Assembly: GCA_017694665.1 (NCBI GenBank)
Contig: JADIMP010000051.1
Coordinates: 1 to 64,000 of the forward strand
From: Candidatus Gallilactobacillus intestinavium
Lineage (GTDB): Bacteria; Bacillota; Bacilli; Lactobacillales; Lactobacillaceae
DNA: 64,000 nucleotides
Reading direction: 5' to 3'
How positions within the stretch are numbered: position 1 is the first letter of the stretch; every line of letters starts with the position of its first letter. Below, in pieces: positions 1,764 to 20,110 of the stretch. The notes below the pieces were generated by a model that was not told the origin of the DNA, did not search any database, and worked only from the letters and a program-made list of their open reading frames with translations. A program made the translations under genes and the position numbers.

Positions 1764-4700
1764 ATGATTAGAAAAAAAGATTCTTATATTGGAGATAAAA
1801 AAGAACACATTAGATTATATAAAAAAGGTAAGTTATGGTTAGCATCTGCTATTAGTATGTTATCTGTTGGTTTAGGCTTATCAAGTAATGTAGATCAAGC
1901 AAAAGCTGATACTGCTAATGAAAATGCTGTTTCAGAAGAAACTAATGATAATAATTCAGCAGCATCAACTACAACAACGCAACAAAGTGCTGTTTCTAAT
2001 AATGCAACAGTAGCTAAAAATGCGGTTAATAATGCACGTACGACGGCAGCTAATTTAGGTTCAACTAGTGCATCTCAACAAGCTAGTTCATCTAGTAAAG
2101 TATCTTCTCAATCACAGCAAAAGCAAGCTTCACAAAATACTCAACAAGCTAAAAGTTCATCATCCAATGAGAAAACTGCAGTTAATAGTAGCAATCAAAG
2201 TAGTGTAACCTCTAGTTCTACACAAACTGTTAATACAAATCCGACATCTTCTACACAAGATAGTAATGTAAATGGAAAAGCAGCTATTGCTGCTAATACC
2301 GTAAAACAATTTAATGATGTTACTGAAACTATCTATGATGAACGAATTGGTAGTGATAATGAAAAGCATATTAATAGTAATAATGCTTCAACAATTGCAA
2401 ACTTGAATTCAACACAATTTAACTCTATTTCTAAGTTTCCAACTCCGGGCGATGCTGTTACCGTCAATATCTACATTATGGGTCAAGGTACGTCTGACAG
2501 TTCAAATAATATTTTGAATGGTCAAACAGGAGATGGACATTTGGCTGGTGGAGCCTTTAGTTACGGTGGATACATGTATGAAAATTATGAAGGATTGATT
2601 GTGCCTGGTAGTTGGTGGAATGCCAATGCAGTACAAGCTACGATTGCTAATTATTTAAACAGTCGTCATTTGATGATTGATACAACTAAAGGGGATATTT
2701 ATCAGGGTCAACATCAAGGATACAATATGTCTAGTGAAAAAATACATAGTGCATATTATGACTATGATCCTGCAACTTGGACTTATCAAATTTACATTTA
2801 CACTTTACCAGCCAAATATACAGTTAAGGTTAATTATGTTGATGATGACGATGGTGATAAAGTAGTTAAAACAGTTACTTTGCCAGCATCTGCTGGAACG
2901 GTTAAGATTGGTTCAGGAACAGTTGATGTACCTGATTCAAGTCGTGGAGGTTATCGCCGCGGAACTGTAATTCATTATGATCCTACTAGTGATATTGCTA
3001 GTTTAACAGGATATGCACCGGCTACAACGGCAGATGGTCAAACACATAATATTCGTGTTAAAGGATTACCTTTATACGGTAATAAAGCTCAAGTTCAAAC
3101 AATTACGATTCATTTAAAACATGCTACTAAACAACAAGTTGAAACTAAAACATCAACACGTACAATTCATTATGAATATAATAATGGACAACCAATTGAT
3201 GGCGGAAAATATGATACTACAGATACAGTAACTTATACACGAACTGATACAATTGATGAGGTTACTGGAAGTATTATTAGTAGTACACCATGGGTAGCTA
3301 AAAATAACGTAACATCTTATCCAGAGCATACTAGTCCGACAGTTGCTGGATATATACCAGATCAACCAACAGTTCCTGCAGTAAGCAATGTTCCAGAAGG
3401 GACAGCTAATTCAACAGTAAATGTTATATATTCACCAAGGGTTGAAACGGTAACGATTCAATATGTTGATGATGATAACGGTGGATCGGTCATTAATAGT
3501 GTGCAATTAACGGGTACGTATGGTTCAACGACTACTTATGATCCAACTAGTGAAGAAAACGCCTTAAAGAAGAACGGTTATATCATTGGTAGTAGTAATT
3601 TGCCAGCTGATGGCGTTATTCCATTTAATAGTGATAACATTACTACTTACACAATTCATGTAACACATAGTAAATCAACTTACACGGCTCAAGATAATCC
3701 AAATAATCAATATGATTTAACCAAGACGATTAAACGTGTCATTAATTATGTTGATGCTAACGGTAATCCAATGCCGGGAATTACTGACACAATTACTGAT
3801 TCAGCAACATTTAACCGTACAGTTACGGTTGATAATGTTACGCATCAAGTGATCAGTTATTCTGATTGGGAGCCAGCTAGTGGATCAAGCACTTCATTCC
3901 CAGATCATAAAAGTCCTGAAGTCACTGGATACACACCAAGTGTGCAAGATGTTCCGGCCGAAACAGTAACAATTAACAGTGATAATCAAACAGTTACGGT
4001 GCGTTATACACCAAACGCAACGACCGTTCATATTAATTATGTCGATGACGATGAAGGCGGTAAAGTTGTATATACTGATTCAGTTTCTGGACCATATGGA
4101 TCAACGATTATTTATGATCCATCCGTTACCGAAAAGAATATGCAAACGTTAGGTTACATCATTGGTAATAGTAATTTACCTACTGGCGATAAGATTACTA
4201 TTCAAGATGTTAACGGTTCATTGCCAACTTATACTGTGCATATGACACACTCGAAGAAAAATATTAGTGGCGATTCTGGTGTGCCAAATGCAGCCGTTAA
4301 TAAAGATGTAAAACGTACCATTCATTATCAATATAGTGATGGTAGTGCAGTACCAGGATTAACTGATGTTGTGCAGAATATTCATTTCCATCGTACAGCA
4401 ACAGTCGATGGCGTTACTCATAAAGTGATTAGTTATACTCCATGGGTAGCTGATAATAATGATGAATTTCCATCAGTACAGTCACCAGTGGTTACTGGAT
4501 ATACACCAACGATCCAAGAAGTACCAGCAGTTCCGAATGTTTCTGAAAGTGATGATGATAGTAGCGTAACAGTTACATATACACCAAACAAAGAACATGC
4601 GGTAATTAACTATGTTGATTCAACCAACGGGAATATTGTACATTCTGATACAGTTAATGGTACTTATGGTCAAACCGTAACGTACGATCCAAGTGCTGAA

Positions 4701-7700
4701 GAAGCTACTTTACAAAATCAAGGTTACACAATTTCATCAACTGATTTTCCATCTAATGGGATGATTACCTTTAACGTTGATGGATATGTACCAACTTACA
4801 CAGTTTATTTAAATCATAGTAAGACAACTTACACACCACAAAATAATCCAAATAATCAATATAACTTAACGGATACGATTAAGCGTACTATTCATTATCA
4901 ATACAACAACGGAAATAGTATTCCGACAATTCCTGATGTAGTAGATACAATTACGTACCATCGTAATGCAATTGTTGATAATATTACCCATACGGTTACA
5001 TATACTCCATGGGTAGCTGATGATAATGTAACTAGTTTTCCAGAACATACTAGTCCATCATTAACGGGATATACACCAGATCAACCAACCGTACCGGAAG
5101 TAGATAATGTTCAAGCTGGTAGTACTGATCAATCCATAACGGTTACTTATACACCAATTCAAAGTCAAATCAACATTCAATATGTGGATGACGATAATGA
5201 AGGACAAGTTGTTTATACTGATCGTTTAACTGGTAGTTATGACAGTACAACAACTTACGATCCAAGTAACGAAGAAAAGATCTTGGAAGGTAAAGGATAC
5301 GTAATTGGTAGTTCTGATTTACCAGCTAATGGTCAAGTAACTTTCGGTGCTAACAAGATCACATACACCATTCATTTAACTCATGCGACAAAGACAGTTA
5401 ATACTGATAATAACAATAATCCAAACATTACTTTGACGCATGATGTAACGCGTACGATTCATTTCCAAGATAGTAATGGTAATGCTATCCCTGGATTAAC
5501 TGATGTTACCCAAACAGTACATTTCACTCGTACAGCTAAAGTCGATGCAGTTACTGGTCAAGCCATTAGTTATAGTGATTGGGAACCAACACCATCAACA
5601 AATGATACTTTACCAGCTTATCAAGCACCAACCGTAACTGGATATACACCAAATACCCAAACTGTGCCAGAAGTAGATAATGTAACTGAAAGTACACAAA
5701 ATAGTACGGTAACAATCACTTATACAGCCAATAAAGAACATGCGATTGTTAATTATGTTGATGACAGTGATGGTGGAAAAATTATCCATACTGATACAGT
5801 CAATGGTACTTATGGGCAAACTGTAACATACGATCCAACAGCTACTGATAATACTTTAACTGGACAAGGATACGTAATTGGTAGTTCTAACTTACCATCT
5901 AACGATCAAATCACCTTTAGTAATGATGGATATGTACCAACATACACAGTTCATGTAACACATAAGACAACAACTTACACACCAAGTACGAATCCAGATG
6001 GTAAATATGACTTAACTCATACGGTAAAACGTACCATTCATTATCAATACAGTAATGGTCAACCAATTCCAAATGTCAGTGATGTAACTGATTCTGTAAC
6101 CTTTAACCGTACGGTAACGGTCGATGATGTTACTGGTCAAGTGGTAAGTTACAGTAATTGGACACCGGATGGTTCAACAACCTATCCAAGTCATGTATCG
6201 CCAACGGTAACTGGATACACACCAGATCAACCAACAGTTCCAGAAATTACTGGTGTTTCTGAGGATAATACTGATACGACTGTAACGGTTAACTATAGTC
6301 CAAACAAAGAACATGCTGTAGTTAACTATGTTGATGACAGTGATGGTGGTAAAGTTATTCATACTGATACAGTTAATGGAACCTATGGTTCAACTGCAAC
6401 GTATGATCCAAGTAGTGAAGAAAGCACGTTAACTAAACAAGGTTATGTCATTGGTAGTTCTGATTTACCAGCCAATGGCCAAATTACTTTCAGTCAAGAT
6501 GGACAAGTACCAACATACACAGTTCATGTAACGCATGGAACGACAACTTACACACCACAAAACAATCCAAATGGCAAGTATCAATTAACTGATACAACTA
6601 CCAGAACCATTCATTACCAATACAGTAATGGAAATAATATTCCTGGATTAAGTGATGTTAAGGATAATGTTACTTATACTCGTACCGTAACGGTTGATAA
6701 TGTTACTGGCCAAGTGGTTAGTTACAGTGATTGGACACCAACTAATAATGTAACTAGTTTCCCAGCTCATCAAAGTCCAGCCGTAACTGGATATACACCA
6801 AATACGCAAACAGTACCAGAAGTGGACAATATTAAACCAGGTACTGCTGACAGCACAACAACGGTTACATATAGTCCAAATAAAGAACAAGTAACCATTA
6901 ACTATGTTGATGACGATGACAATGGCAACATTGTACATACTGATACAATTAATGGATTATTTGGTAGTACAACAACATACGATCCAAGTAACGAAGAAAA
7001 AGTCTTAGAAGGTCAAGGATACATTATTGGTAGTAGCAATTTACCATCCAATGACACAATTACCTTTAATGCAACTAATCAAACATATACGATTCATTTA
7101 ACGCATGCGACAAAGACGGTAAATCCAAGCAACAACACTAATCCAAATATTATCTTGACACATGATGTTACTCGTACGATTCATTATCAATACAGTAATG
7201 GTCAAGCTATTCCTGGATTAACTGATGTTACTCAAACAGTACATTTCACTCGTACAGCTAAGATCGATTCTGTAACTGGTCAAGCAGTAAGTTATAGTGA
7301 TTGGACGCCATCTAGTACAACAGATAACTTCCCATCATATCAAAGTCCAACGGTAACTGGATATACACCGGATAAACAAACAGTACCTGAAGTAGATAAT
7401 GTTACAGAAGATACTCCAGACAGTACAGTTAATGTTACTTATAGTGCTAACCCAGAACATGCCATTGTTAACTATGTCGATGACAGTGATGGCGGAAAAA
7501 TTATTCATACCGATACAGTTAATGGAACTTATGGTTCAACGGTAACGTATAATCCAACTAATACTGATAATACATTGACAAAACAAGGTTATGTCATTGG
7601 TAACAGTAATTTGCCAACCGGTGATAAGATTCCATTTAGTGTTGATGGATATGTGCCAACATACACAGTCCATGTAACTCATGGAACGACAACTTACACA

Positions 7701-10700
7701 CCAAGTACCAATCCAGATGGTAAATATCAATTAACACATAACGTAACGCGTACGATTCATTATCAATACAATAATGGGCAACCAATTCCTGGTGTTAAAG
7801 ATGTAATCGACACAGTCACATACAACCGTAATGTCACTGTTGATAATGTAACTGGCCAAGTAGTCAGCTATAGTAATTGGACACCAGCTGGTTCAACAAC
7901 CTATCCAAGTCATGTATCACCAACCGTAACTGGATATACTCCAGATCAACCAACTGTACCATCAGTTAGTGGCGTAGCAGAAAATGATAGTGATACTACA
8001 GTTACAGTTACATACAATCCAAATAAAGAACATGCTGTAATTAACTATGTTGATGATGATGAAAATGGTAAAGTCGTTCACAGTGATACAGTAGATGGTG
8101 TTTATGGTGGTACATCTACTTATGATCCAACTTCTGAAGAAGATACTTTAAAGAATGCTGGTTATACAATTGGTAGTTCTGACTTACCAGCTAATGGACA
8201 AATTACCTTTAGCCAAGATGGTCAAGTACCAACTTACACAATTCATTTAACTCATAGTACGACAACTTACACACCACAGACAAATCCAGATGGCAAGTAT
8301 CAATTAACAGATACGATTAATCGTACGATTCATTACCAATACAGTAACGGTGATGCTATACCTAATGTTAATGATGTAACTGATTCAGTTACTTATAATC
8401 GTACAGTAACGGTTGATAATGTTACTGGCCAAGTGGTAAGTTACAGTAACTGGACTCCAGTTAATAATGTAACTAGCTTCCCAGATCGTAAGAGTCCTGA
8501 AGTAACTGGATATACTCCAGATAAGCCAGATGTACCGGCAGTATCTGACGTACAACCAGGAACAAAAGACACTACTGTAACAGTTAACTATAGTGCTAAT
8601 AAAGAACAAGTAACGATCAATTATGTTGATGATGATAATGATGGTTCTATTGTTCATACCGATACAATCAACGGTTTGTATGGTAGTACAACGACTTACG
8701 ACCCAAGTAATGAAGAAAAAGTCTTAGAAGGTCAAGGTTATATTATTGGTAGTTCTGATTTACCAGCCGGTGACACAATTACCTTTAATGCAACTAACCA
8801 AACTTACACGATTCATTTGACTCACGCTACTAAGACTGTAAATCCAGATAACAACACTAATCCAAACATCATCTTGTCACATAATGTAACTCGTACAATT
8901 CACTTCCAATACAGTAATGGACAAGATATTCCTGGATTAACCGATGTCACTCAAACAGTAACCTTCACTCGTACGGCTAAGATTGATGCGGTTACTGGTC
9001 AAGCAATTAGTTACAGTGATTGGACTCCATCTGGAACTGATGATTTCCCAAGTTACAAGAGTCCTAGTTTGACTGGATACACACCAGATAAACAAAGTGT
9101 TCCAGAAGTAGACAATGTTTCTGAATCTGCTCAAGACAGTACAATCAATGTTACTTATAGTGCTAACCCAGAGCATGCCATTGTTAACTATGTTGATGAT
9201 GACGATGGTGAAAAGATTGTTCATACTGATACAGTTAATGGAACATTTGATTCAACTGTAACTTATGATCCAACTGATACAGATAAAACCTTAACTGGAC
9301 AAGGTTACATTATCGGTAGTTCTAACTTGCCAACCGGTGATAAGATCACCTTCAGTAATGATGGATATGTACCAACATACACAGTGCATGTAAGTCATGC
9401 TACACATACAGTAAATCCATCAAATAATCCAGATCCAAGTAAGATTACCTTAACGCACGACGTGACTCGTACAGTACATTATCAATACAGTAATGGACAA
9501 TCCATTCCTGGATTAAGTGATGTAACGCAAACAATTCACTTTACTCGTACGGCTAATATCGATAGTGTTACAGGTCAAGTAGTTAGCTATGGTAACTGGA
9601 CTCCATCTGGTAGCGATGACTTCCCATTAGTACCATCTCCACAAGTTAATGGATATACTCCAGATCAAACTAGTGTACCATCAGTAACCGATGTTCCAGA
9701 AGATACACAAAATAGTACAGTTAACGTTACTTATAATGCTAATAAAGAGCACGCAGTCGTTAACTATGTTGATGACACTGATGGCGGTAAAGTCATTCAT
9801 AGTGATACAGTTAACGGAACCTTTGGCTCAACCGTAACGTATGATCCAACTAGTGAAGAAGATACATTAAAGAATTCTGGATATGTTATTGGTAATAGTG
9901 ATTTACCTGCTAATGGTCAAATTACTTTTAATACAGATGGACAAGTACCAACATACACAATCCATGTAACTCATGGAACAACAACTTACACGCCACAAAC
10001 AAATCCAGATGGCAAATATCAATTAACTGATACCACAACTAGAACTATTCATTATCAATACAGTGATGGTCAACCAACCAGCATTAAGGATGTAACCGAT
10101 ACAGTTACATACAACCGTAATGTCACTGTTGATAACGTAACTGGTCAAGTGGTAAGTTACAGTGATTGGACACCAGTTAACAATGTGACTGGCTTCCCAG
10201 ATCATCAAAGTCCAAGTTTAACAGGATATACTCCTGATAAACCAGATGTACCAGCAGTATCTGATGTACAACCAGGTACAGCTAACAGCACAGTAACAGT
10301 TACATACAGTGCTAACAAAGAACAAGTAACGATTAATTATGTTGATGATGACGAAGATGGCAAAATTGTTCATACTGACGTTATTAATGGTTTATATAAT
10401 ACAACCACAACATATGATCCAAGTAATGAAGAAAAAGTGTTAGAAGGTCAAGGTTATGTCATTGGTAGTTCTAACTTACCAGCTGGTGGTAACATTACCT
10501 TTAATGCAACCGATCAAACTTACACAATTCATTTGACTCATGGTACATCCACAGTTAACCCAAGTAACAATACCAATCCAAATATTGATTTAACTAAAGA
10601 TGTAACTCGTACAATTTACTATCAATACAGTAATGGACAACCTGTACCTGGATTAACTAATGTAACTCAGACAGTTCATTTTACTCGTACAGCTAAGATC

Positions 10701-13700
10701 GATTCTGTAACTGGTCAAGCAATTAGCTACAGCGACTGGACACCAAGTGGTTCAGATACATTCTCTGAAGTTAAATCGCCACAAGTAACTGGATACACAC
10801 CAAATATTGCTAGTGTTCCAGCTGTACAAACAGTAACTTCTGACACGAAGAGTAGTGCGATAACAGTTATTTATAACGTTAACTCAGAACATGCGATTGT
10901 TAACTATGTTGATGATGACGATGGTGAAAAGATCATTCATACTGATACAGTTAACGGAACATTTGGATCAACTGTAACTTATGATCCAACCAACACAGAT
11001 ACTACATTAACTAACCAAGGATATATTATCGGTAGTTCTAACTTACCAACTGGCGATAAGATCACCTTTACACATGATGGATATGTGCCAACATACACAG
11101 TCCACGTAACTCATGGTACGCACACTGTTACACCTGCTGATAATCCAGATCCAAGCAAGATTACTTTGACACACGATGTAACTCGTACCATTCATTACCA
11201 ATACAGTAACGGTCAATCTATTCCTGGATTAGGTGATGTAACTCAAACAATTCATTACACTCGTACAGCTAATATTGATAGTGTTACAGGTCAAGTAGTC
11301 AGTTATGGTGATTGGACACCATCTGGAACTGATGACTTTCCATCTGTATCATCACCACAAGTTAATGGATACACTCCAGATCAACCTAGTGTTCCTGCTC
11401 AAACTGATGTACCAGAAGATACTCAAAATAGTACGGTAACAGTTAACTACAATGCTAATAAAGAACATGCGGTAATTAACTATGTTGATGATAGTGATAA
11501 TGGTAAGATTATCCATACTGATACAGTTAATGGAACGTTTGGCTCAACTGAAACTTATGATCCAAGTTCTGAAGAAGGTACTTTAACTAAACAAGGATAT
11601 GTCATTGGTAACAGCAACTTACCAACTGGCGGTAAGATCACGTTCAGTACCGATGGATATGTACCAACATACACAATCCATGTAACTCATGGAACGACAA
11701 CTTACACGCCACAAAACAATCCAAATGGTAAATATAACTTAACTGACACGACAACTAGGACAATTAAGTATCAATACAGTAATGGTCAACCAATTGCAAG
11801 CATTCCAAATGTTACAGATACAGTAACTTACAACCGTACTGTAACCGTTGATAATGTTACAGGTAATGTCATTAGTTATAGTGATTGGACACCAGTTGAC
11901 AATGTTACTGGATTCCCAGACCACAAGAGTCCAGCATTAACTGGATATACTCCTGATAAGACTGATGTACCAGCTGTAAGCAATGTACAACCAGGTGCAG
12001 CTGATAGTTCAGTAACAGTTACATATAGTGCTGATAAAGAACAAGTAACGATTAATTATGTGGACGACGATGAAGATGGTAAGATCGTTCATACTGATAG
12101 CATTAGTGGATTATATGGCAGCACAACAACATACGATCCAACTAATGAAGAAAAAGTGTTAGAAGGTCAAGGTTACATTATTGGTAATAGTAATTTACCA
12201 GCCGGTGGTAATATTACCTTTAACGCAACTGATCAAACTTACACGATTCATTTAACTCATGCTACAAATACAGTAAATCCAAGCAATAACACTAATCCAA
12301 ACATTGTATTAACTCATGATGTAACTCGTACAGTACATTATCAATACAGTAATGGACAAGCTATTCCAGGATTAAATGATGTAACGCAAACAGTACACTT
12401 TACTCGTACGGCTAAAGTCGATGCAGTTACTGGCCAAGCAATTAGTTATAGTGATTGGACACCATCTGGAACTGATACATTCCCAGAAGTTAAATCACCA
12501 CAAGTAACTGGATATACACCAGATAAGCAAAGTGTTCCTGCTAGTGCTACTGTTAATGAAACTGATCAAAACAGTACTGTTAATGTCACATATAGTGCTA
12601 ACCCAGAACATGCGGTTATTAACTATGTTGATGACGACGATGGTGGTAAAGTTATTCATTCTGATACAGTTAATGGAACCTTTGGCTCAACTGTAACGTA
12701 TGATCCATCAGCAACTGATAGTGCTTTAACTAAACAAGGATATGTCATTGGTAACAGTGATTTACCAGCCGGTGATCAAATTCCATTTAGTGTGGATGGA
12801 TATGTACCAACATACACAGTTCACGTAACTCATGGTAGTCATACAGTTACACCAGCTGATAATCCAGACCCAACTCAAATTATCTTAACGCATGATGTAA
12901 CTCGTAAGATTCATTACCAATACAGTAATGGACAACCAATTCCAAACGTTAGTGATGTAACGCAAACTATTCACTTTACTCGTACGGCTAATGTCGATAG
13001 TGTAACTGGTAAAGTAATTAGTTATGGCGATTGGACACCATCTGGAACTGATGACTTCCCATTAGTTCAATCTCCACAAGTAACTGGATACACACCAGAT
13101 CAAACCAATGTACCATCTGAAACAAATGTTCCAGAAAGTACAGCTGATAACACAGTAACAGTTACATATAGTGCTAATAAAGAACACGCAGTTGTTAACT
13201 ATGTTGATGATACTGATGGTGGCAAGATCATCCATACTGACACAGTAAACGGTACCTTTGGTTCAACCGTAACGTATGATCCAAGCACTGAAGAAGGTAA
13301 TTTAACTAAACAAGGATATATCATTGGTAGCAATGATTTACCAACTGGTGACAAGATTACCTTTAGTCAAGATGGTCAAGTACCAACATACACAGTTCAC
13401 GTAACTCACGGTACCCATACTGTTACACCAGACCAAGATCCAACTGATAAATATCAAACATCACATACAATTACTCGTAAGATTCATTATCAATACAGTA
13501 ATGGACAACCAATTCCAAATGTTAGTGATGTAACTGATTCAGTAACTTATCATCGTACAGCTACTGTTGATAATGTTACAGGTAATGTTGTCAGCTACAC
13601 TGATTGGGCACCAGTTAACAATGTAACTGGTTATCCAGATCGTAAGAGTCCAGCGGTAACTGGATACACACCAGACAAACCAGACGTACCAGCTCAAACT

Positions 13701-16700
13701 GATGTTCCAGAAACAGCTCAAGACAGCAACATAACTGTTACATATAGTGCTAATCCAGAACATGCGGTTGTTAACTATGTTGATGATGATGAAAACGGTA
13801 AAGTTGTTTACAGCGATACTGTAAATGGTGTTTATGGAGGTACATCTACATATAATCCAAGTAGCGAAGAAACTAAATTGAAGAATGCTGGATACATCAT
13901 TGGTAATAGTGATTTACCAGCTAATGGTCAAATTACCTTTACTAAAGATGGCGATGTTCCAACATACACAATTCATTTAACACATAGTACACAAACTGTT
14001 GATCCATCAACTAACCCAGATCCAAGCAAGATCATCTTAACGCATGATGTTACTCGTACTATTCACTATGAATACAACGATGGTAATAGTATTCCTGGAT
14101 TAAGCGATACGATCGATACAGTTCACTGGACTCGTACAGCTAAGATCGATAGTGTTACTGGAGATGTCATCAGTTATGGACCATGGCAAATTGATGGAGT
14201 AGATGCTTATCCAAGTCATGTATCTCCACAAGTTGCTGGATTCAAGCCAGATATTCAATCTGTTCCACAAGTAACTGGAATTAAGGAAACAGATAACAAC
14301 ACTACCGTTACTGTTAAATACAGTCCAAACGCAGAACATGCTGAAGTTCAATATGTTGACGATGATGAAAATGGTAAAGTAGTTGTTACTGACGAAGTAC
14401 CAGGAGATTATGATCAAACTGTAACTTACGATCCAACAGCAATTGAAAACAAATTACGTGGTGAGGGTTACATTATTGGTAATAGTAATTTACCAGCTAA
14501 TAACCAGATTTACTTCGGTAACGATGGTTATGTACCGGTATATCGTGTTCATTTGACTCATGGAATGAAGACTGTTCCAGCAGCAGATGATCCAACTAAC
14601 CAATACAACACAACATCTAAAGTTACTCGTACGATTCATTATCAATACAGTAATGGACAACCTGTACCTAGTTTGCCAGATCGTGTTGATTCTGTAACTT
14701 ATACTCGTACAGCAACAGTTGATGAAGTAACAAATAAACCAGTTAGTTACACTGATTGGACAACAACTAACAATACAATGCCATATGTTCAAATTCCATC
14801 CTTAACAGGTTACACACCTAACCAAACATCAGTTAAGGCTGAAACTGGAGTTGAACAAAACTGGCATTCATGGACTGATACAGTTACTTACACACCAAAT
14901 GCAGAACATGCCGTCGTTAACTATGTTGACGATACTGATGGTGGCAAGATCATCCACAGTGATACTGTCAGTGGTGTATATGACGGAACAACAGTTTACG
15001 ACCCAAGTTCTGAAGAAAGTACTTTAACTAAACAAGGATACGTCATCGGTAATAGTAATTTACCAGCTGGTGGTAAGATTACCTTTACTCAAGACGGTCA
15101 GGTACCAACATATACAATCCATGTAACTCATGGAACCCATACAGTAACACCTGCTGAAGATCCAGATAACAAGTATCAAACATCACACAGCATCACTAGA
15201 ACAATTCATTACCAAAACAGTAATGGACAACCATTGTCTGGTGTAAGTGATGTAACTCAAACAGTGACATACCACCGTACAGCAACAGTTGATAGTGTAA
15301 CTGGTAAGACATTAAGTTACACTGATTGGCAACCAGTAGGTACACCAGATTATCCAGCACAACAAAGTCCAGCGGTAACTGGATACACGCCTGATACACA
15401 AACAGTACCAGAAGTGGATAATATACCAGAAACAGCTCAAAACAGCACGGTAACAGTAACGTACAATGCTAATAAAGAGCATGCGGTCGTTAACTATGTT
15501 GACGATACTGATGGTGGCAAGATTGTACACAGTGATACAGTCAATGGTTACTTCGATCAAACCTCAACCTACGATCCAACTAGTGAAGAAAACACATTGA
15601 AGAACCAAGGTTACATTATTGGAAGCACTGACTTACCAGCTAATGGTAAAATCACCTTCACTAAAGATGGCGATGTACCAACCTATACAATTCATTTGAC
15701 TCATGGAACACATACTGTTGACTCTGATCAAGATCCAGACAACAAGTATCAAACTTCACACAGTATTACTCGTACCATTCACTATCAATACAGTAATGGA
15801 CAAAACATTCCTGGTGTAAGTGATGTAACACAAACTGTCACATATCACCGTGTAGCAACGGTTGATAGTGTAACTGGTAAAGCATTGAGTTACACTGATT
15901 GGCAACCAGTAGGTACACCAGATTATCCAGCACAACAAAGTCCAAATGTTGTTGGATACACGCCAGATCAACCAACTGTACCAGAAGTAGATGATGTTCC
16001 AGAAACAGCATCTAATAGTACAGTTACCGTTAACTACAACGCCAACAAAGAACATGCCGTAGTTAACTATGTTGATGACACGGATGGTGGCAAGATTATC
16101 CATACTGATACAGTCAATGGATACTTCGATCAAACATCAACCTACGATCCAAGTTCTGAAGAAAACACGTTGAAGAATGCTGGATACATCATTGGTAATA
16201 GTGACTTACCAGCTGGTGGTAAGATTACCTTTACTCAAGATGGTCAAGTACCAACATATACAATTCACGTAACTCATGGCACAACAACATACACGCCACA
16301 AACAAATCCAGATGGCAAGTATGATTTAACCCATGTCATTAACCGAAACATTCATTATCAATACCAAAACGGTCAACCAGTACCATCAGTTAAAGACATA
16401 ACTGATACAGTAACTTATAACCGTACGGTAACAGTTGATAATGTAACGCACCAAGTAGTAAGTTATAGTGATTGGACACCAGAAAACGGTGTATCTGACT
16501 TCCCAGATCATCCAACACCAACTGTTACAGGTTACACACCAGACAAGACTGATGTACCAGAAGTAGCAGTACAACCAGATGACAAGAGTCAAACAGTAAC
16601 AGTAACTTACAACAACAATCCAGAACATGCGGTTGTTAACTATGTTGACGACACGGATGGTGGCAAGATTGTACATAGCGATACAGTTAATGGACATTTT

Positions 16701-19175
16701 GATGAAACATCAACGTATGATCCAACTAGTGAAGAGAATACTTTGAAGAATCAAGGTTACATTATTGGAAGTACCGACTTACCAGCTAATGGCCAAATTA
16801 CCTTCACTAAAGATGGCGATGTACCAACATACACGGTTCATTTAACTCATGGAACCCATACAGTTGACCCAAGTCAAGATCCAGACAACAAGTATCAAAC
16901 ATCTCATAGCACTACTAGAACAATTCATTATCAATACAGTAATGGTAATGCTGTTCCAGGTGTTAAAGATGTAACCCAAACTGTAACGTACCATCGTACA
17001 GCAACGGTCGATAGTGTAACTGGTAAGACATTAAGTTACACTGATTGGCAACCAGTAGGCACACCAGATTATCCAGCACAACAAAGTCCAGCAGTAACTG
17101 GATACACTCCAGATACACAGACTGTGCCAGAAGTTGACAATGTACCAGAAGATGCACAAAACAGTACTGTAACAGTAACGTACAACGCTAATAAAGAACA
17201 TGCGGTCGTTAACTATGTTGACGATACCGATGGTGGCAAGATTGTACATAGTGATACAGTGAATGGATACTTCGATCAAACATCAACGTATGATCCAACT
17301 AGTGAAGAAAATACGTTGAAGAACGCCGGATACATCATTGGTAATAGTAATTTACCATCTAATGGCCAAATTACCTTTACTCAAGATGGTCAAGTTCCAA
17401 CATACACGGTTCATTTAACTCATGGAACGCATACTGTTGACTCTGATCAAGATCCAGACAACAAGTATCAAACATCACATAGTACAACTAGAACAATTCA
17501 TTACGAATACAGTAATGGACAAAACATTCCTGGTGTAAGTGATGTAACGCAAACTGTCACATATCATCGTGTTGCAACGGTCGACAGTGTAACTGGTAAA
17601 GCATTAAGTTATACCGATTGGCAACCAGTTGGTAATCCAGCTTACCCAGCTCAAGATTCACCAAAAGTAACTGGATATACACCAAACATAGCCACTGTTC
17701 CGGAGGCAGATAACATTCCAGAAACAGCAGCTAATAGTTCAGTTACGGTTGTCTACAGTGCAAATCCAGAACATGCGGTAATCAATTATGTTGATGACAC
17801 AGAAGGCGGCAAGATTATTCATTCTGATACAGTGAATGGTCACTTCGATCAAACATCAACGTATGATCCAAGTTCTGAAGAAAACACATTAACCAAACAA
17901 GGATATGTCATCGGTAATAGTAATTTACCAGCCGGTGGTAAGATTACCTTTACTCAAGATGGACAAGTACCAACGTACACAATTCATGTAACACACGGTA
18001 CAACAACATATACACCAGAAGACAATCCAAATGGTAAGTATGACTTAACTAATACTCATCACCGTATCATTCGTTACACAACCACTGATGGCGAACAAAT
18101 TACTTCAACAACTGATACAGTAACGTTCCACCGTAAAGTAATTGTGGATAATGTTACAGGTAAAATTGTTAAGTATACTCCTTGGGTAACTGACAATGGT
18201 TCAAGTACTGGAACTTATCCAGAACATACCAGTCCAGCTGAACCTGGATTATATCCAGAAAGTAATACCACACCAGCTGAAACAGTTACACCAGATTCAC
18301 CAGCAACGGAAATTATCAATGTTCAATATGGTAGAAATAAAGAACATGCCATCGTTAACTACGTTGATGATGACGAAGGTGGTAAGGTAGTTGCTAGTGA
18401 TACAGTAAACGGAGTATTCGGTGGTGAAACTACATACGATCCAACTAACACTGAGAATAAGTTGAAACATGATGGTTATGTCCTTGGCGACAGTAATTTA
18501 CCAAAAGATGATCAAATTGACTTTAGTCAAGATGGTAAAGTACCGGTTTACACAGTTCACATGACTCATGGAACAACGACAATTAATCCAAGCACAGGAT
18601 ACGCTGCTGGTAAGAGATACGATAAGACATATGATTTAACTCATGATGTAACTAGAACAATCAAGTATCAATCAGCTGATGGCAAGACGCTTGCTTCAAC
18701 AGTTGTTGATACAGTGCACTTTACAAGAACTGCTAAGATTGATGCAGTTACAGGTAAAGTAATCAGTTACAGTAAATGGGTAGTTGATGGAACTGATTCA
18801 TTCCCAGGACATGAATCACCAAGCATCAATGGATACACTCCAGATCAAACAAGCATTAATGGTGAAGATGACATTACTGCTAACATGCAAGATCAAACAA
18901 TTACGGTTACTTACAAGGCAAATCCAAAACCACAAGCTAAAGGCAATGGATATGGTCAAGGTGGTAATGGTAATGTTGATCTAGCAGATCCGGCAGATCT
19001 AAAACCAGCTACATTACCAATGACAGGAGCTAATAATCAAGTTGAAGGTACCTTGAGTATCGTTGGTTTGACCTTAGCTGACATCTTAGTAATGTTTGGT
19101 TTAGCAGGAGCTTATCGTAAACAAAAAGTAGGCGATTTGACGCGTGAGGAAGATCAAACTACTGGTAAAAAATAA
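1764..19175 (+). CDS. Giant 5,803-residue MucBP/Mub-B2 repeat adhesin, LPxTG-anchored
   Basis: A complete, uninterrupted 17.4-kb gene. Residues 17-25 (RLYKKGKLW) match the KxYKxGKxW-type signal peptide with one conservative change; a hydrophobic core follows and cleavage is likely after AKA (residue 48). Residues about 50-180 are Ser/Thr/Gln/Asn-rich, like the region that is O-glycosylated in serine-rich adhesins. Residues about 225-352 are a unique aromatic-rich domain I do not recognise. Then come 28 units, each a MucBP domain (N/Q-YVDD... to ...TYTVHVTH) plus a Mub B2-like domain (RTIHYQYSNG... VTGYTPD... VTVTY). The end is a Gly/Asn linker, LPMTG at 5751-5755, a membrane helix and a charged tail. 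The likely role is a very long fibrillar adhesin for mucin, glycans or other cells. The start is ATG with AAGAGG 14 bases upstream, a rather long spacing. It is followed by its own terminator and so is probably monocistronic. Repeat count and order are read directly; ligand and glycosylation are inference. Confidence 0.95.
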   Translation: MIRKKDSYIGDKKEHIRLYKKGKLWLASAISMLSVGLGLSSNVDQAKADTANENAVSEETNDNNSAASTTTTQQSAVSNNATVAKNAVNNARTTAANLGSTSASQQASSSSKVSSQSQQKQASQNTQQAKSSSSNEKTAVNSSNQSSVTSSSTQTVNTNPTSSTQDSNVNGKAAIAANTVKQFNDVTETIYDERIGSDNEKHINSNNASTIANLNSTQFNSISKFPTPGDAVTVNIYIMGQGTSDSSNNILNGQTGDGHLAGGAFSYGGYMYENYEGLIVPGSWWNANAVQATIANYLNSRHLMIDTTKGDIYQGQHQGYNMSSEKIHSAYYDYDPATWTYQIYIYTLPAKYTVKVNYVDDDDGDKVVKTVTLPASAGTVKIGSGTVDVPDSSRGGYRRGTVIHYDPTSDIASLTGYAPATTADGQTHNIRVKGLPLYGNKAQVQTITIHLKHATKQQVETKTSTRTIHYEYNNGQPIDGGKYDTTDTVTYTRTDTIDEVTGSIISSTPWVAKNNVTSYPEHTSPTVAGYIPDQPTVPAVSNVPEGTANSTVNVIYSPRVETVTIQYVDDDNGGSVINSVQLTGTYGSTTTYDPTSEENALKKNGYIIGSSNLPADGVIPFNSDNITTYTIHVTHSKSTYTAQDNPNNQYDLTKTIKRVINYVDANGNPMPGITDTITDSATFNRTVTVDNVTHQVISYSDWEPASGSSTSFPDHKSPEVTGYTPSVQDVPAETVTINSDNQTVTVRYTPNATTVHINYVDDDEGGKVVYTDSVSGPYGSTIIYDPSVTEKNMQTLGYIIGNSNLPTGDKITIQDVNGSLPTYTVHMTHSKKNISGDSGVPNAAVNKDVKRTIHYQYSDGSAVPGLTDVVQNIHFHRTATVDGVTHKVISYTPWVADNNDEFPSVQSPVVTGYTPTIQEVPAVPNVSESDDDSSVTVTYTPNKEHAVINYVDSTNGNIVHSDTVNGTYGQTVTYDPSAEEATLQNQGYTISSTDFPSNGMITFNVDGYVPTYTVYLNHSKTTYTPQNNPNNQYNLTDTIKRTIHYQYNNGNSIPTIPDVVDTITYHRNAIVDNITHTVTYTPWVADDNVTSFPEHTSPSLTGYTPDQPTVPEVDNVQAGSTDQSITVTYTPIQSQINIQYVDDDNEGQVVYTDRLTGSYDSTTTYDPSNEEKILEGKGYVIGSSDLPANGQVTFGANKITYTIHLTHATKTVNTDNNNNPNITLTHDVTRTIHFQDSNGNAIPGLTDVTQTVHFTRTAKVDAVTGQAISYSDWEPTPSTNDTLPAYQAPTVTGYTPNTQTVPEVDNVTESTQNSTVTITYTANKEHAIVNYVDDSDGGKIIHTDTVNGTYGQTVTYDPTATDNTLTGQGYVIGSSNLPSNDQITFSNDGYVPTYTVHVTHKTTTYTPSTNPDGKYDLTHTVKRTIHYQYSNGQPIPNVSDVTDSVTFNRTVTVDDVTGQVVSYSNWTPDGSTTYPSHVSPTVTGYTPDQPTVPEITGVSEDNTDTTVTVNYSPNKEHAVVNYVDDSDGGKVIHTDTVNGTYGSTATYDPSSEESTLTKQGYVIGSSDLPANGQITFSQDGQVPTYTVHVTHGTTTYTPQNNPNGKYQLTDTTTRTIHYQYSNGNNIPGLSDVKDNVTYTRTVTVDNVTGQVVSYSDWTPTNNVTSFPAHQSPAVTGYTPNTQTVPEVDNIKPGTADSTTTVTYSPNKEQVTINYVDDDDNGNIVHTDTINGLFGSTTTYDPSNEEKVLEGQGYIIGSSNLPSNDTITFNATNQTYTIHLTHATKTVNPSNNTNPNIILTHDVTRTIHYQYSNGQAIPGLTDVTQTVHFTRTAKIDSVTGQAVSYSDWTPSSTTDNFPSYQSPTVTGYTPDKQTVPEVDNVTEDTPDSTVNVTYSANPEHAIVNYVDDSDGGKIIHTDTVNGTYGSTVTYNPTNTDNTLTKQGYVIGNSNLPTGDKIPFSVDGYVPTYTVHVTHGTTTYTPSTNPDGKYQLTHNVTRTIHYQYNNGQPIPGVKDVIDTVTYNRNVTVDNVTGQVVSYSNWTPAGSTTYPSHVSPTVTGYTPDQPTVPSVSGVAENDSDTTVTVTYNPNKEHAVINYVDDDENGKVVHSDTVDGVYGGTSTYDPTSEEDTLKNAGYTIGSSDLPANGQITFSQDGQVPTYTIHLTHSTTTYTPQTNPDGKYQLTDTINRTIHYQYSNGDAIPNVNDVTDSVTYNRTVTVDNVTGQVVSYSNWTPVNNVTSFPDRKSPEVTGYTPDKPDVPAVSDVQPGTKDTTVTVNYSANKEQVTINYVDDDNDGSIVHTDTINGLYGSTTTYDPSNEEKVLEGQGYIIGSSDLPAGDTITFNATNQTYTIHLTHATKTVNPDNNTNPNIILSHNVTRTIHFQYSNGQDIPGLTDVTQTVTFTRTAKIDAVTGQAISYSDWTPSGTDDFPSYKSPSLTGYTPDKQSVPEVDNVSESAQDSTINVTYSANPEHAIVNYVDDDDGEKIVHTDTVNGTFDSTVTYDPTDTDKTLTGQGYIIGSSNLPTGDKITFSNDGYVPTYTVHVSHATHTVNPSNNPDPSKITLTHDVTRTVHYQYSNGQSIPGLSDVTQTIHFTRTANIDSVTGQVVSYGNWTPSGSDDFPLVPSPQVNGYTPDQTSVPSVTDVPEDTQNSTVNVTYNANKEHAVVNYVDDTDGGKVIHSDTVNGTFGSTVTYDPTSEEDTLKNSGYVIGNSDLPANGQITFNTDGQVPTYTIHVTHGTTTYTPQTNPDGKYQLTDTTTRTIHYQYSDGQPTSIKDVTDTVTYNRNVTVDNVTGQVVSYSDWTPVNNVTGFPDHQSPSLTGYTPDKPDVPAVSDVQPGTANSTVTVTYSANKEQVTINYVDDDEDGKIVHTDVINGLYNTTTTYDPSNEEKVLEGQGYVIGSSNLPAGGNITFNATDQTYTIHLTHGTSTVNPSNNTNPNIDLTKDVTRTIYYQYSNGQPVPGLTNVTQTVHFTRTAKIDSVTGQAISYSDWTPSGSDTFSEVKSPQVTGYTPNIASVPAVQTVTSDTKSSAITVIYNVNSEHAIVNYVDDDDGEKIIHTDTVNGTFGSTVTYDPTNTDTTLTNQGYIIGSSNLPTGDKITFTHDGYVPTYTVHVTHGTHTVTPADNPDPSKITLTHDVTRTIHYQYSNGQSIPGLGDVTQTIHYTRTANIDSVTGQVVSYGDWTPSGTDDFPSVSSPQVNGYTPDQPSVPAQTDVPEDTQNSTVTVNYNANKEHAVINYVDDSDNGKIIHTDTVNGTFGSTETYDPSSEEGTLTKQGYVIGNSNLPTGGKITFSTDGYVPTYTIHVTHGTTTYTPQNNPNGKYNLTDTTTRTIKYQYSNGQPIASIPNVTDTVTYNRTVTVDNVTGNVISYSDWTPVDNVTGFPDHKSPALTGYTPDKTDVPAVSNVQPGAADSSVTVTYSADKEQVTINYVDDDEDGKIVHTDSISGLYGSTTTYDPTNEEKVLEGQGYIIGNSNLPAGGNITFNATDQTYTIHLTHATNTVNPSNNTNPNIVLTHDVTRTVHYQYSNGQAIPGLNDVTQTVHFTRTAKVDAVTGQAISYSDWTPSGTDTFPEVKSPQVTGYTPDKQSVPASATVNETDQNSTVNVTYSANPEHAVINYVDDDDGGKVIHSDTVNGTFGSTVTYDPSATDSALTKQGYVIGNSDLPAGDQIPFSVDGYVPTYTVHVTHGSHTVTPADNPDPTQIILTHDVTRKIHYQYSNGQPIPNVSDVTQTIHFTRTANVDSVTGKVISYGDWTPSGTDDFPLVQSPQVTGYTPDQTNVPSETNVPESTADNTVTVTYSANKEHAVVNYVDDTDGGKIIHTDTVNGTFGSTVTYDPSTEEGNLTKQGYIIGSNDLPTGDKITFSQDGQVPTYTVHVTHGTHTVTPDQDPTDKYQTSHTITRKIHYQYSNGQPIPNVSDVTDSVTYHRTATVDNVTGNVVSYTDWAPVNNVTGYPDRKSPAVTGYTPDKPDVPAQTDVPETAQDSNITVTYSANPEHAVVNYVDDDENGKVVYSDTVNGVYGGTSTYNPSSEETKLKNAGYIIGNSDLPANGQITFTKDGDVPTYTIHLTHSTQTVDPSTNPDPSKIILTHDVTRTIHYEYNDGNSIPGLSDTIDTVHWTRTAKIDSVTGDVISYGPWQIDGVDAYPSHVSPQVAGFKPDIQSVPQVTGIKETDNNTTVTVKYSPNAEHAEVQYVDDDENGKVVVTDEVPGDYDQTVTYDPTAIENKLRGEGYIIGNSNLPANNQIYFGNDGYVPVYRVHLTHGMKTVPAADDPTNQYNTTSKVTRTIHYQYSNGQPVPSLPDRVDSVTYTRTATVDEVTNKPVSYTDWTTTNNTMPYVQIPSLTGYTPNQTSVKAETGVEQNWHSWTDTVTYTPNAEHAVVNYVDDTDGGKIIHSDTVSGVYDGTTVYDPSSEESTLTKQGYVIGNSNLPAGGKITFTQDGQVPTYTIHVTHGTHTVTPAEDPDNKYQTSHSITRTIHYQNSNGQPLSGVSDVTQTVTYHRTATVDSVTGKTLSYTDWQPVGTPDYPAQQSPAVTGYTPDTQTVPEVDNIPETAQNSTVTVTYNANKEHAVVNYVDDTDGGKIVHSDTVNGYFDQTSTYDPTSEENTLKNQGYIIGSTDLPANGKITFTKDGDVPTYTIHLTHGTHTVDSDQDPDNKYQTSHSITRTIHYQYSNGQNIPGVSDVTQTVTYHRVATVDSVTGKALSYTDWQPVGTPDYPAQQSPNVVGYTPDQPTVPEVDDVPETASNSTVTVNYNANKEHAVVNYVDDTDGGKIIHTDTVNGYFDQTSTYDPSSEENTLKNAGYIIGNSDLPAGGKITFTQDGQVPTYTIHVTHGTTTYTPQTNPDGKYDLTHVINRNIHYQYQNGQPVPSVKDITDTVTYNRTVTVDNVTHQVVSYSDWTPENGVSDFPDHPTPTVTGYTPDKTDVPEVAVQPDDKSQTVTVTYNNNPEHAVVNYVDDTDGGKIVHSDTVNGHFDETSTYDPTSEENTLKNQGYIIGSTDLPANGQITFTKDGDVPTYTVHLTHGTHTVDPSQDPDNKYQTSHSTTRTIHYQYSNGNAVPGVKDVTQTVTYHRTATVDSVTGKTLSYTDWQPVGTPDYPAQQSPAVTGYTPDTQTVPEVDNVPEDAQNSTVTVTYNANKEHAVVNYVDDTDGGKIVHSDTVNGYFDQTSTYDPTSEENTLKNAGYIIGNSNLPSNGQITFTQDGQVPTYTVHLTHGTHTVDSDQDPDNKYQTSHSTTRTIHYEYSNGQNIPGVSDVTQTVTYHRVATVDSVTGKALSYTDWQPVGNPAYPAQDSPKVTGYTPNIATVPEADNIPETAANSSVTVVYSANPEHAVINYVDDTEGGKIIHSDTVNGHFDQTSTYDPSSEENTLTKQGYVIGNSNLPAGGKITFTQDGQVPTYTIHVTHGTTTYTPEDNPNGKYDLTNTHHRIIRYTTTDGEQITSTTDTVTFHRKVIVDNVTGKIVKYTPWVTDNGSSTGTYPEHTSPAEPGLYPESNTTPAETVTPDSPATEIINVQYGRNKEHAIVNYVDDDEGGKVVASDTVNGVFGGETTYDPTNTENKLKHDGYVLGDSNLPKDDQIDFSQDGKVPVYTVHMTHGTTTINPSTGYAAGKRYDKTYDLTHDVTRTIKYQSADGKTLASTVVDTVHFTRTAKIDAVTGKVISYSKWVVDGTDSFPGHESPSINGYTPDQTSINGEDDITANMQDQTITVTYKANPKPQAKGNGYGQGGNGNVDLADPADLKPATLPMTGANNQVEGTLSIVGLTLADILVMFGLAGAYRKQKVGDLTREEDQTTGKK
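5155..13755 (+). repeat. Higher-order repeat: five copies of a three-unit (about 1,719 bp) block
   Basis: Units 5-19 follow an A-B-C order five times. Type A (units 5, 8, 11, 14, 17) has SNEEK-V/I-LEG followed by a shortened ITF-NATNQ-TYTIHLTHAT hairpin, with KEQVTINYVDDD in the last four copies. Type B (6, 9, 12, 15, 18) has EHA-I/V-VNYVDD, a T-D-x-L motif and DGYVPTYTVHV. Type C (7, 10, 13, 16, 19) has EHAV, SEE-x-L and DGQVPTYT (DGYVPTYT in unit 16). The GAACAA that opens type A falls at 6885, 8604, 10320 and 12039, steps of 1719, 1716 and 1719 bp. Confidence 0.85.
14905..18345 (+). repeat. Second higher-order block: two copies of a three-unit repeat
   Basis: Units 22-24 and 25-27 repeat the same order. 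Units 22 and 25 share TVDSVTGKTLSYTDWQPVG, units 23 and 26 share HRVATVDSVTGKALSYTDW, and units 24 and 27 share the GTTTYTP linker and DLT motif. CTGGTAAGAC at 15301 recurs at 17020, again 1719 bp apart, and the surrounding several hundred bases look about 90% identical by eye. Confidence 0.8.
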
Positions 19176-19696: not shown

Positions 19697-20110
19697 ATGC
19701 CTACAATTAACCAATTGGTTCATAAAGGTCGTAAATCTAAAACGTCAAAATCAAAAGCACCAGCATTGAATGTTGGTTATAACAGTTACAAGAAGGAACA
19801 AATTAACAATCCTTCACCACAAAAACGTGGAGTTGCTACTCGTGTCGGCACAATGACACCAAAGAAGCCTAACTCTGCTTTGCGTAAATATGCGCGTGTG
19901 CGTTTATCTAACTTAATTGAAGTAACAGCATATATTCCTGGAATTGGTCATAATCTTCAGGAACATAGTGTGGTATTAATTCGTGGTGGTCGTGTTAAGG
20001 ACTTACCAGGAGTTCGTTACCATATTGTTCGTGGTGCTTTAGATACTGCCGGTGTTACTGACCGTAAACAAGGTCGTTCTAAGTACGGAACTAAGAAACC
20101 TAAGAAGTAA
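19697..20110 (+). CDS. rpsL: 30S ribosomal protein S12
   Basis: Decoding-centre protein of the small subunit. The 137-residue length is normal for the family. The two loops that contact 16S rRNA are intact: [11 protein letters not shown] (54-64) and GGRVKDLPG (97-105). Lysines occupy the positions equivalent to E. coli K43 (here K57) and K88 (here K101), the streptomycin-sensitive state. A strong AAGGGAGG ribosome binding site precedes the ATG. It is first in a two-gene unit with rpsG and, unusually, has the giant adhesin rather than rpoC immediately upstream. Confidence 0.98.

Follow-up and report, generated by a model that had tools for sequence, protein, structure and literature searches.

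How does a giant adhesin built from many copies of one domain pair come to its length, by the copying of single units or of larger blocks? The question is raised by a gene of Candidatus Gallilactobacillus intestinavium that lies in the window (i.e., the whole 64,000-nucleotide stretch of DNA analysed here) and carries a long array of Mub units, in which a first-pass annotation had seen a three-unit higher-order repeat.

The gene and its setting

The open reading frame and its parts are as follows:
1764-19175, + strand: giant Mub-type LPxTG adhesin, 5,803 aa (Pfam KxYKxGKxW_sig, MucBP_2, Muc_B2)
1764-2816, + strand: N-terminal region (aa 1-351) with KxYKxGKxW signal, a stretch rich in S/T/N/Q and a unique segment (Pfam)
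2817-18914, + strand: 28 Mub units in tandem, each composed of MucBP_2 plus Muc_B2 (motif cutting and Pfam)
18915-19175, + strand: linker, LPMTG, hydrophobic segment and charged tail (translation, by eye)

The KxYKxGKxW export signal was recognized by PF19258 (E=2e-10) and, above its cut-off, by TIGR03715, and the tandem pairs of MucBP_2 (PF17965) and Muc_B2 (PF17966) score above the Pfam cut-offs, while the LPMTG motif with its hydrophobic stretch and charged tail was read by eye from the translation, without a profile match. The genome encodes two sortases. By analogy with its family, the product would be a cell-wall-anchored mucus-binding adhesin, with a presumptive role in adhesion and as a stalk. 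An accessory Sec route (SecA2) for this KxYKxGKxW adhesin was considered and set aside, as the sole SecA found in the assembly scores above the canonical SecA cut-off and below that of SecA2.

The N-terminal region has weak relatives elsewhere, and a search with it as query returned no named relative. Its signal region is also present in three further proteins of the same genome (L055, L054 and L056, at G000:C86:965-1555, G000:C65:14286-14780 and G000:C107:509-1003), so this small genome (1.28 Mb in 110 contigs, about 91% complete, with named lactobacilli among its family-level relatives) carries several such surface proteins. A second adhesin gene lies alongside: positions 2-1567 of the window hold the C-terminal end of an LPxTG adhesin, including one Muc_B2 domain, truncated by the contig start, and the two adhesin genes form a tandem pair just upstream of the str/ribosomal-protein cluster. 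Directly downstream comes rpsL (our reading of the open reading frame at 19697-20110), then rpsG, fusA and a large ribosomal-protein cluster.

A three-unit period in the array

Cutting the array at the conserved YVD[DS] motif gave 28 units of 189-192 aa, save the first (209 aa), and thus bore out the basic repeat that had been proposed. Five of them, spaced regularly, start at 5163, 6885, 8604, 10320 and 12039 (gaps of 1722, 1719, 1716 and 1719 bp) and are here called type A; the last four positions, used as anchors in the first-pass annotation, are indeed where units 8, 11, 14 and 17 begin, and its other pair of anchors (15301 and 17020) marks one and the same site within units 22 and 25, at a spacing of 1719 bp. 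The putative structural period of 573 residues that it derived is arithmetically correct. The array is divided as follows:
5163-13757, + strand: units 5-19, five A-B-C triplets (distance-3 identity 77.8% at the nucleotide level, p=0.0002)
5163-6884, + strand: triplet I, units 5-7, 1722 bp (unit cutting)
6885-8603, + strand: triplet II, units 8-10, 1719 bp (unit cutting)
8604-10319, + strand: triplet III, units 11-13, 1716 bp (unit cutting)
10320-12038, + strand: triplet IV, units 14-16, 1719 bp (unit cutting)
12039-13757, + strand: triplet V, units 17-19, 1719 bp, unit 19 transitional to type X (unit cutting, tree)
13758-14903, + strand: units 20-21, outliers breaking the three-unit phase (unit cutting, tree)
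14904-18341, + strand: units 22-27, an X-X-C' triplet twice (+1719 identity, exact repeats)
18342-18914, + strand: unit 28, terminal outlier (unit cutting)

The all-against-all identity matrix contains the excess at distance three that had been predicted. Over all units, mean DNA identity at distances 1 to 5 is 64.9, 65.3, 72.0, 64.8 and 64.0%, and within units 5-19 it is 66.8, 66.1, 77.8, 67.5 and 65.0%, with echo peaks at distances 6 (75.0%), 9 (74.1%) and 12 (72.8%). When the order of the units was shuffled 5,000 times, with distance 3 minus the mean of distances 1, 2, 4 and 5 as statistic, the observed excess was reached by none of the shuffles (p=0.0002), be it for all units or for units 5-19, for the whole unit or for either half-domain. 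Units 22-27 alone also have an excess at distance three, a weaker one (p=0.019) that stems from the Muc_B2 half. Compared by stretches of 30 residues, 87 of 138 had their nearest unit at a multiple of three.

Unit types and mosaics

In the protein tree, type A (units 5, 8, 11, 14 and 17 only) forms one clade at 100/100, and a two-residue deletion together with diagnostic residues is common to all five copies. The C-type units 7, 10, 13 and 16 cluster with units 24, 27, 2 and 4, the last two being C-like, and type X (units 22, 23, 25 and 26) is a single clade at 99/99, which unit 19 joins at 90/82. Units 20, 21 and 28 match no type. The A-B-C cycling had been proposed for five rounds in units 5-19 and two more in units 22-27; the five rounds stand, and the two later ones are repeats of another triplet, X-X-C'.

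Type B splits in two, i.e., (6,9) and (12,15,18), with the contrast lying mainly in the Muc_B2 half. The B units are mosaics: the start of this half is nearest to A units in 12, 15 and 18, and to unit 19 in 6 and 9. When block distances among the five triplets were compared across the types A, B and C, no significant correlation emerged (full-unit r of -0.26 to 0.34), so that the data do not retrieve a plain succession of whole-triplet copies; exchange between units or near-saturation may be the cause of these incongruent histories.

The longest exact repeat in the gene (57 bp) connects units 22 and 23, one unit apart, and the next ones (50, 44 and 43 bp) are all exactly 1,719 bp apart, joining units 22-25 and 23-26. 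Between 14900 and about 16200, DNA identity at +1,719 amounts to 74-89%; it is lower beyond. Both observations point to a C-terminal triplet whose duplication was probably a younger event than the A-B-C series. As no exact repeat exceeds 57 bp, the order of the units can be resolved with short reads, and inter-unit recombination is expected to be inefficient by now.

Age of the proposed duplications

Synonymous and nonsynonymous differences were counted by the Nei-Gojobori method, with codons shuffled among equal amino acids as a ceiling (pS of about 0.66-0.67). In units 5-19, pS is 0.507 and pN 0.139 at distance 3, vs. 0.533-0.568 and 0.264-0.290 at distances 1, 2, 4 and 5, the synonymous difference being significant (p=0.0034). 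Pooled within types, pS is 0.509 and pN 0.165, and between types they are 0.555 and 0.275, i.e., pN/pS is lower within types than between them. At 44 degenerate columns where the amino acid never changes, units of one type share their codons more often (identity 0.683) than units of different types (0.649; p=0.012); the excess at four-fold sites at distance 3 in units 5-19 is not significant alone (p=0.17). The lower synonymous divergence at distance three and the higher codon identity within types argue for descent rather than convergence. With pS within types at about 0.51 and the ceiling at about 0.67, the period persists mostly in amino acids. To judge from these counts, the period leaves a weak synonymous trace that supports descent by duplication, but the duplications are old. 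That the units might actively avoid sharing DNA identity was also considered and rejected, because codon shuffling shows that real units share more of it than recoded ones.

Other Mub arrays

For comparison, Mub arrays of at least eight units were gathered from many genomes by profile and protein searches (31 rows including that of the window, a few of them orthologous or taken from the same gene). The window array stands out among these rows with a distance-3 z score of 9.1. A weaker peak at distance three (z 2.7; units 1-4-7 and 5-8) was found in a nine-unit array of genome G363 (L096/L127). Most Mub arrays score best at a distance of one or two units, in line with single-unit copying, and the absence of a period of three in most of them indicates that the Mub fold does not force it. 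Arrays of up to 20 units in neighbouring genera are likewise without a three-unit period. In genus g23, which has no super-repeat, orthologous arrays of related species show a one-to-one match of units, with a length difference of a single unit (19 vs. 18, 17 vs. 16).

Genome G162 has four arrays (L082-L085, three of them in full as L124-L126) with a clean two-unit super-repeat. Their central units alternate, with about 91-98% identity within a type (one pair at 100%) and about 33% between types, and within-type pS is as low as 0-0.2; this super-repeat is cleaner and younger than the three-unit one of the window. L124, L125 and L126 are paralogous giant Mub adhesins of 5,002-5,041 aa. Taken together, the two-unit and three-unit cases indicate that super-repeats have more than one origin in giant Mub adhesins.

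Structure and stalk length

An AlphaFold2 model of units 8-10, for which overlapping triplets of the array itself served as alignment, reached a pLDDT of 91.6 and a pTM of 0.40, i.e., single units are well predicted and their mutual placing is not; a prediction of the triplet from a single sequence was of no use (pLDDT 39). Foldseek returned full-unit matches to the MUB repeats 4mt5 (TM-score by target 0.75) and 3i57 (0.78), and also matched the YwfG surface protein. The adhesin units are hence predicted by the model to have the Mub fold. A MUB repeat spans 110 A, and 14 repeats measure 174 nm (PMC5133854). At 11-12 nm per unit, the stalk would by analogy be roughly 300-350 nm long, with about 33-37 nm per triplet.

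How the array may have grown

We consider it likely that a Mub-type stalk was lengthened through the tandem copying of three-unit blocks, followed by divergence, half-domain exchange and purifying selection. The growth by three-unit blocks that the first-pass annotation had suggested is supported by the distance-3 excess, the type-specific deletion, the slight synonymous excess and the exact repeats at 1,719 bp. Most likely, unequal recombination would have duplicated such blocks in this lineage, giving rise first to an A-B-C series in the middle of the array and later to the X-X-C' duplication closer to the cell wall. Purifying selection would have acted during the long divergence that followed, in which units also exchanged some half-domains (e.g., the second halves of B), and the types would thus now be visible mainly in the protein sequence. 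Similar rod-like units would most likely set the length of the stalk and provide many weak contacts with mucin or glycans.

The same period might instead reflect position-dependent selection, with A, B and C as functional or structural modules held in register in a titin-like manner and a 573-residue period that is useful for ligand spacing or twist. The contrast between types is indeed much larger in amino acids (pN 0.275/0.165) than at synonymous sites (pS 0.555/0.509) and the types have persisted over a long time. However, near-saturated synonymous sites can yield the same contrast, units 20-21 break the phase, the second triplet is composed differently, and the period is missing in neighbouring genera with arrays of up to 20 units, and we thus regard this explanation as unlikely. 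That the triplet is a functional super-period, whose specialized A, B and C units are kept in register by selection, seems a little less likely again; if true, it would be a bacterial counterpart of the titin super-repeats, with ligand sites at every 33-37 nm or so of the stalk.

A recent satellite-like expansion with homogenization, in which the length of the array would still be shifting by threes, could account for the exact repeats of up to 50 bp at a distance of 1719 bp in units 22-27. Yet no pair of units has a pS under 0.41, no exact repeat is longer than the 57 bp in units 22-23, and recent Mub arrays elsewhere reach a pS of 0-0.2; already weakened by the synonymous data, such an expansion appears very unlikely. 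Lastly, the array might be an assembly artefact of a repetitive gene in a fragmented genome: the genome is in 110 contigs, is 91% complete and has a contig start inside the neighbouring adhesin gene. Against an artefact speak the single open frame of 5,803 codons, the fact that all units differ, and exact repeats of at most 57 bp, each spanned by ordinary short reads, which make it the least probable of all these explanations and a highly improbable one. Returning to block duplication, its likeness to satellite DNA, also claimed at first, is not supported for this array: within-type pS is 0.51, exact repeats end at 57 bp and the A, B and C block distances are uncorrelated. Identity at the multi-unit period is well above that of neighbouring units, as in a higher-order repeat, but the super-units are not near-identical and homogenized (69-84% DNA identity within types, pS of about 0.51). 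The satellite comparison suits the period-two array of G162 better.

Known systems offer several parallels, and nebulin is another documented case of multi-domain tandem duplication. With MUB of Limosilactobacillus reuteri ATCC 53608 and the Mub family, the adhesin shares a two-part unit of about 185-190 aa and a beads-on-a-string arrangement; MUB has 14 repeats of two types (PMC5133854), whereas the adhesin has 28 units in triplet phase. L124-L126 of G162 likewise have a super-repeat of whole Mub units within a giant adhesin, but it is of period two, young and truly satellite-like. Multi-domain duplication and protein super-repeats as such are already well documented (PMC1553488; PMC10665226). 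According to Bjorklund et al. 2006 (PMC1553488), such duplication is common in domain-repeat proteins, which have the same autocorrelation signature, one example peaking at three; the examples consulted are mostly eukaryotic and Mub is not among their families. In the A-band super-repeats of titin, domains at equal positions are most alike, most strongly so in mid-array, and a link of the period to the thick filament is assumed (PMC10665226), whereas no such partner is known for the adhesin. A small literature search, with subscription papers outside its scope, found no report of super-repeats in Mub proteins, an absence that weighs little.

If block duplication is the right reading, Mub giants of lactic acid bacteria are able to grow by entire domain blocks, three units here and two in G162, and this growth leaves a readable record in them. 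With both an old and a young example at hand, it may be asked whether block size is a matter of chance or is selected, the candidates for such selection being the length of the stalk, the avoidance of misfolding between like neighbours and the spacing of ligands.
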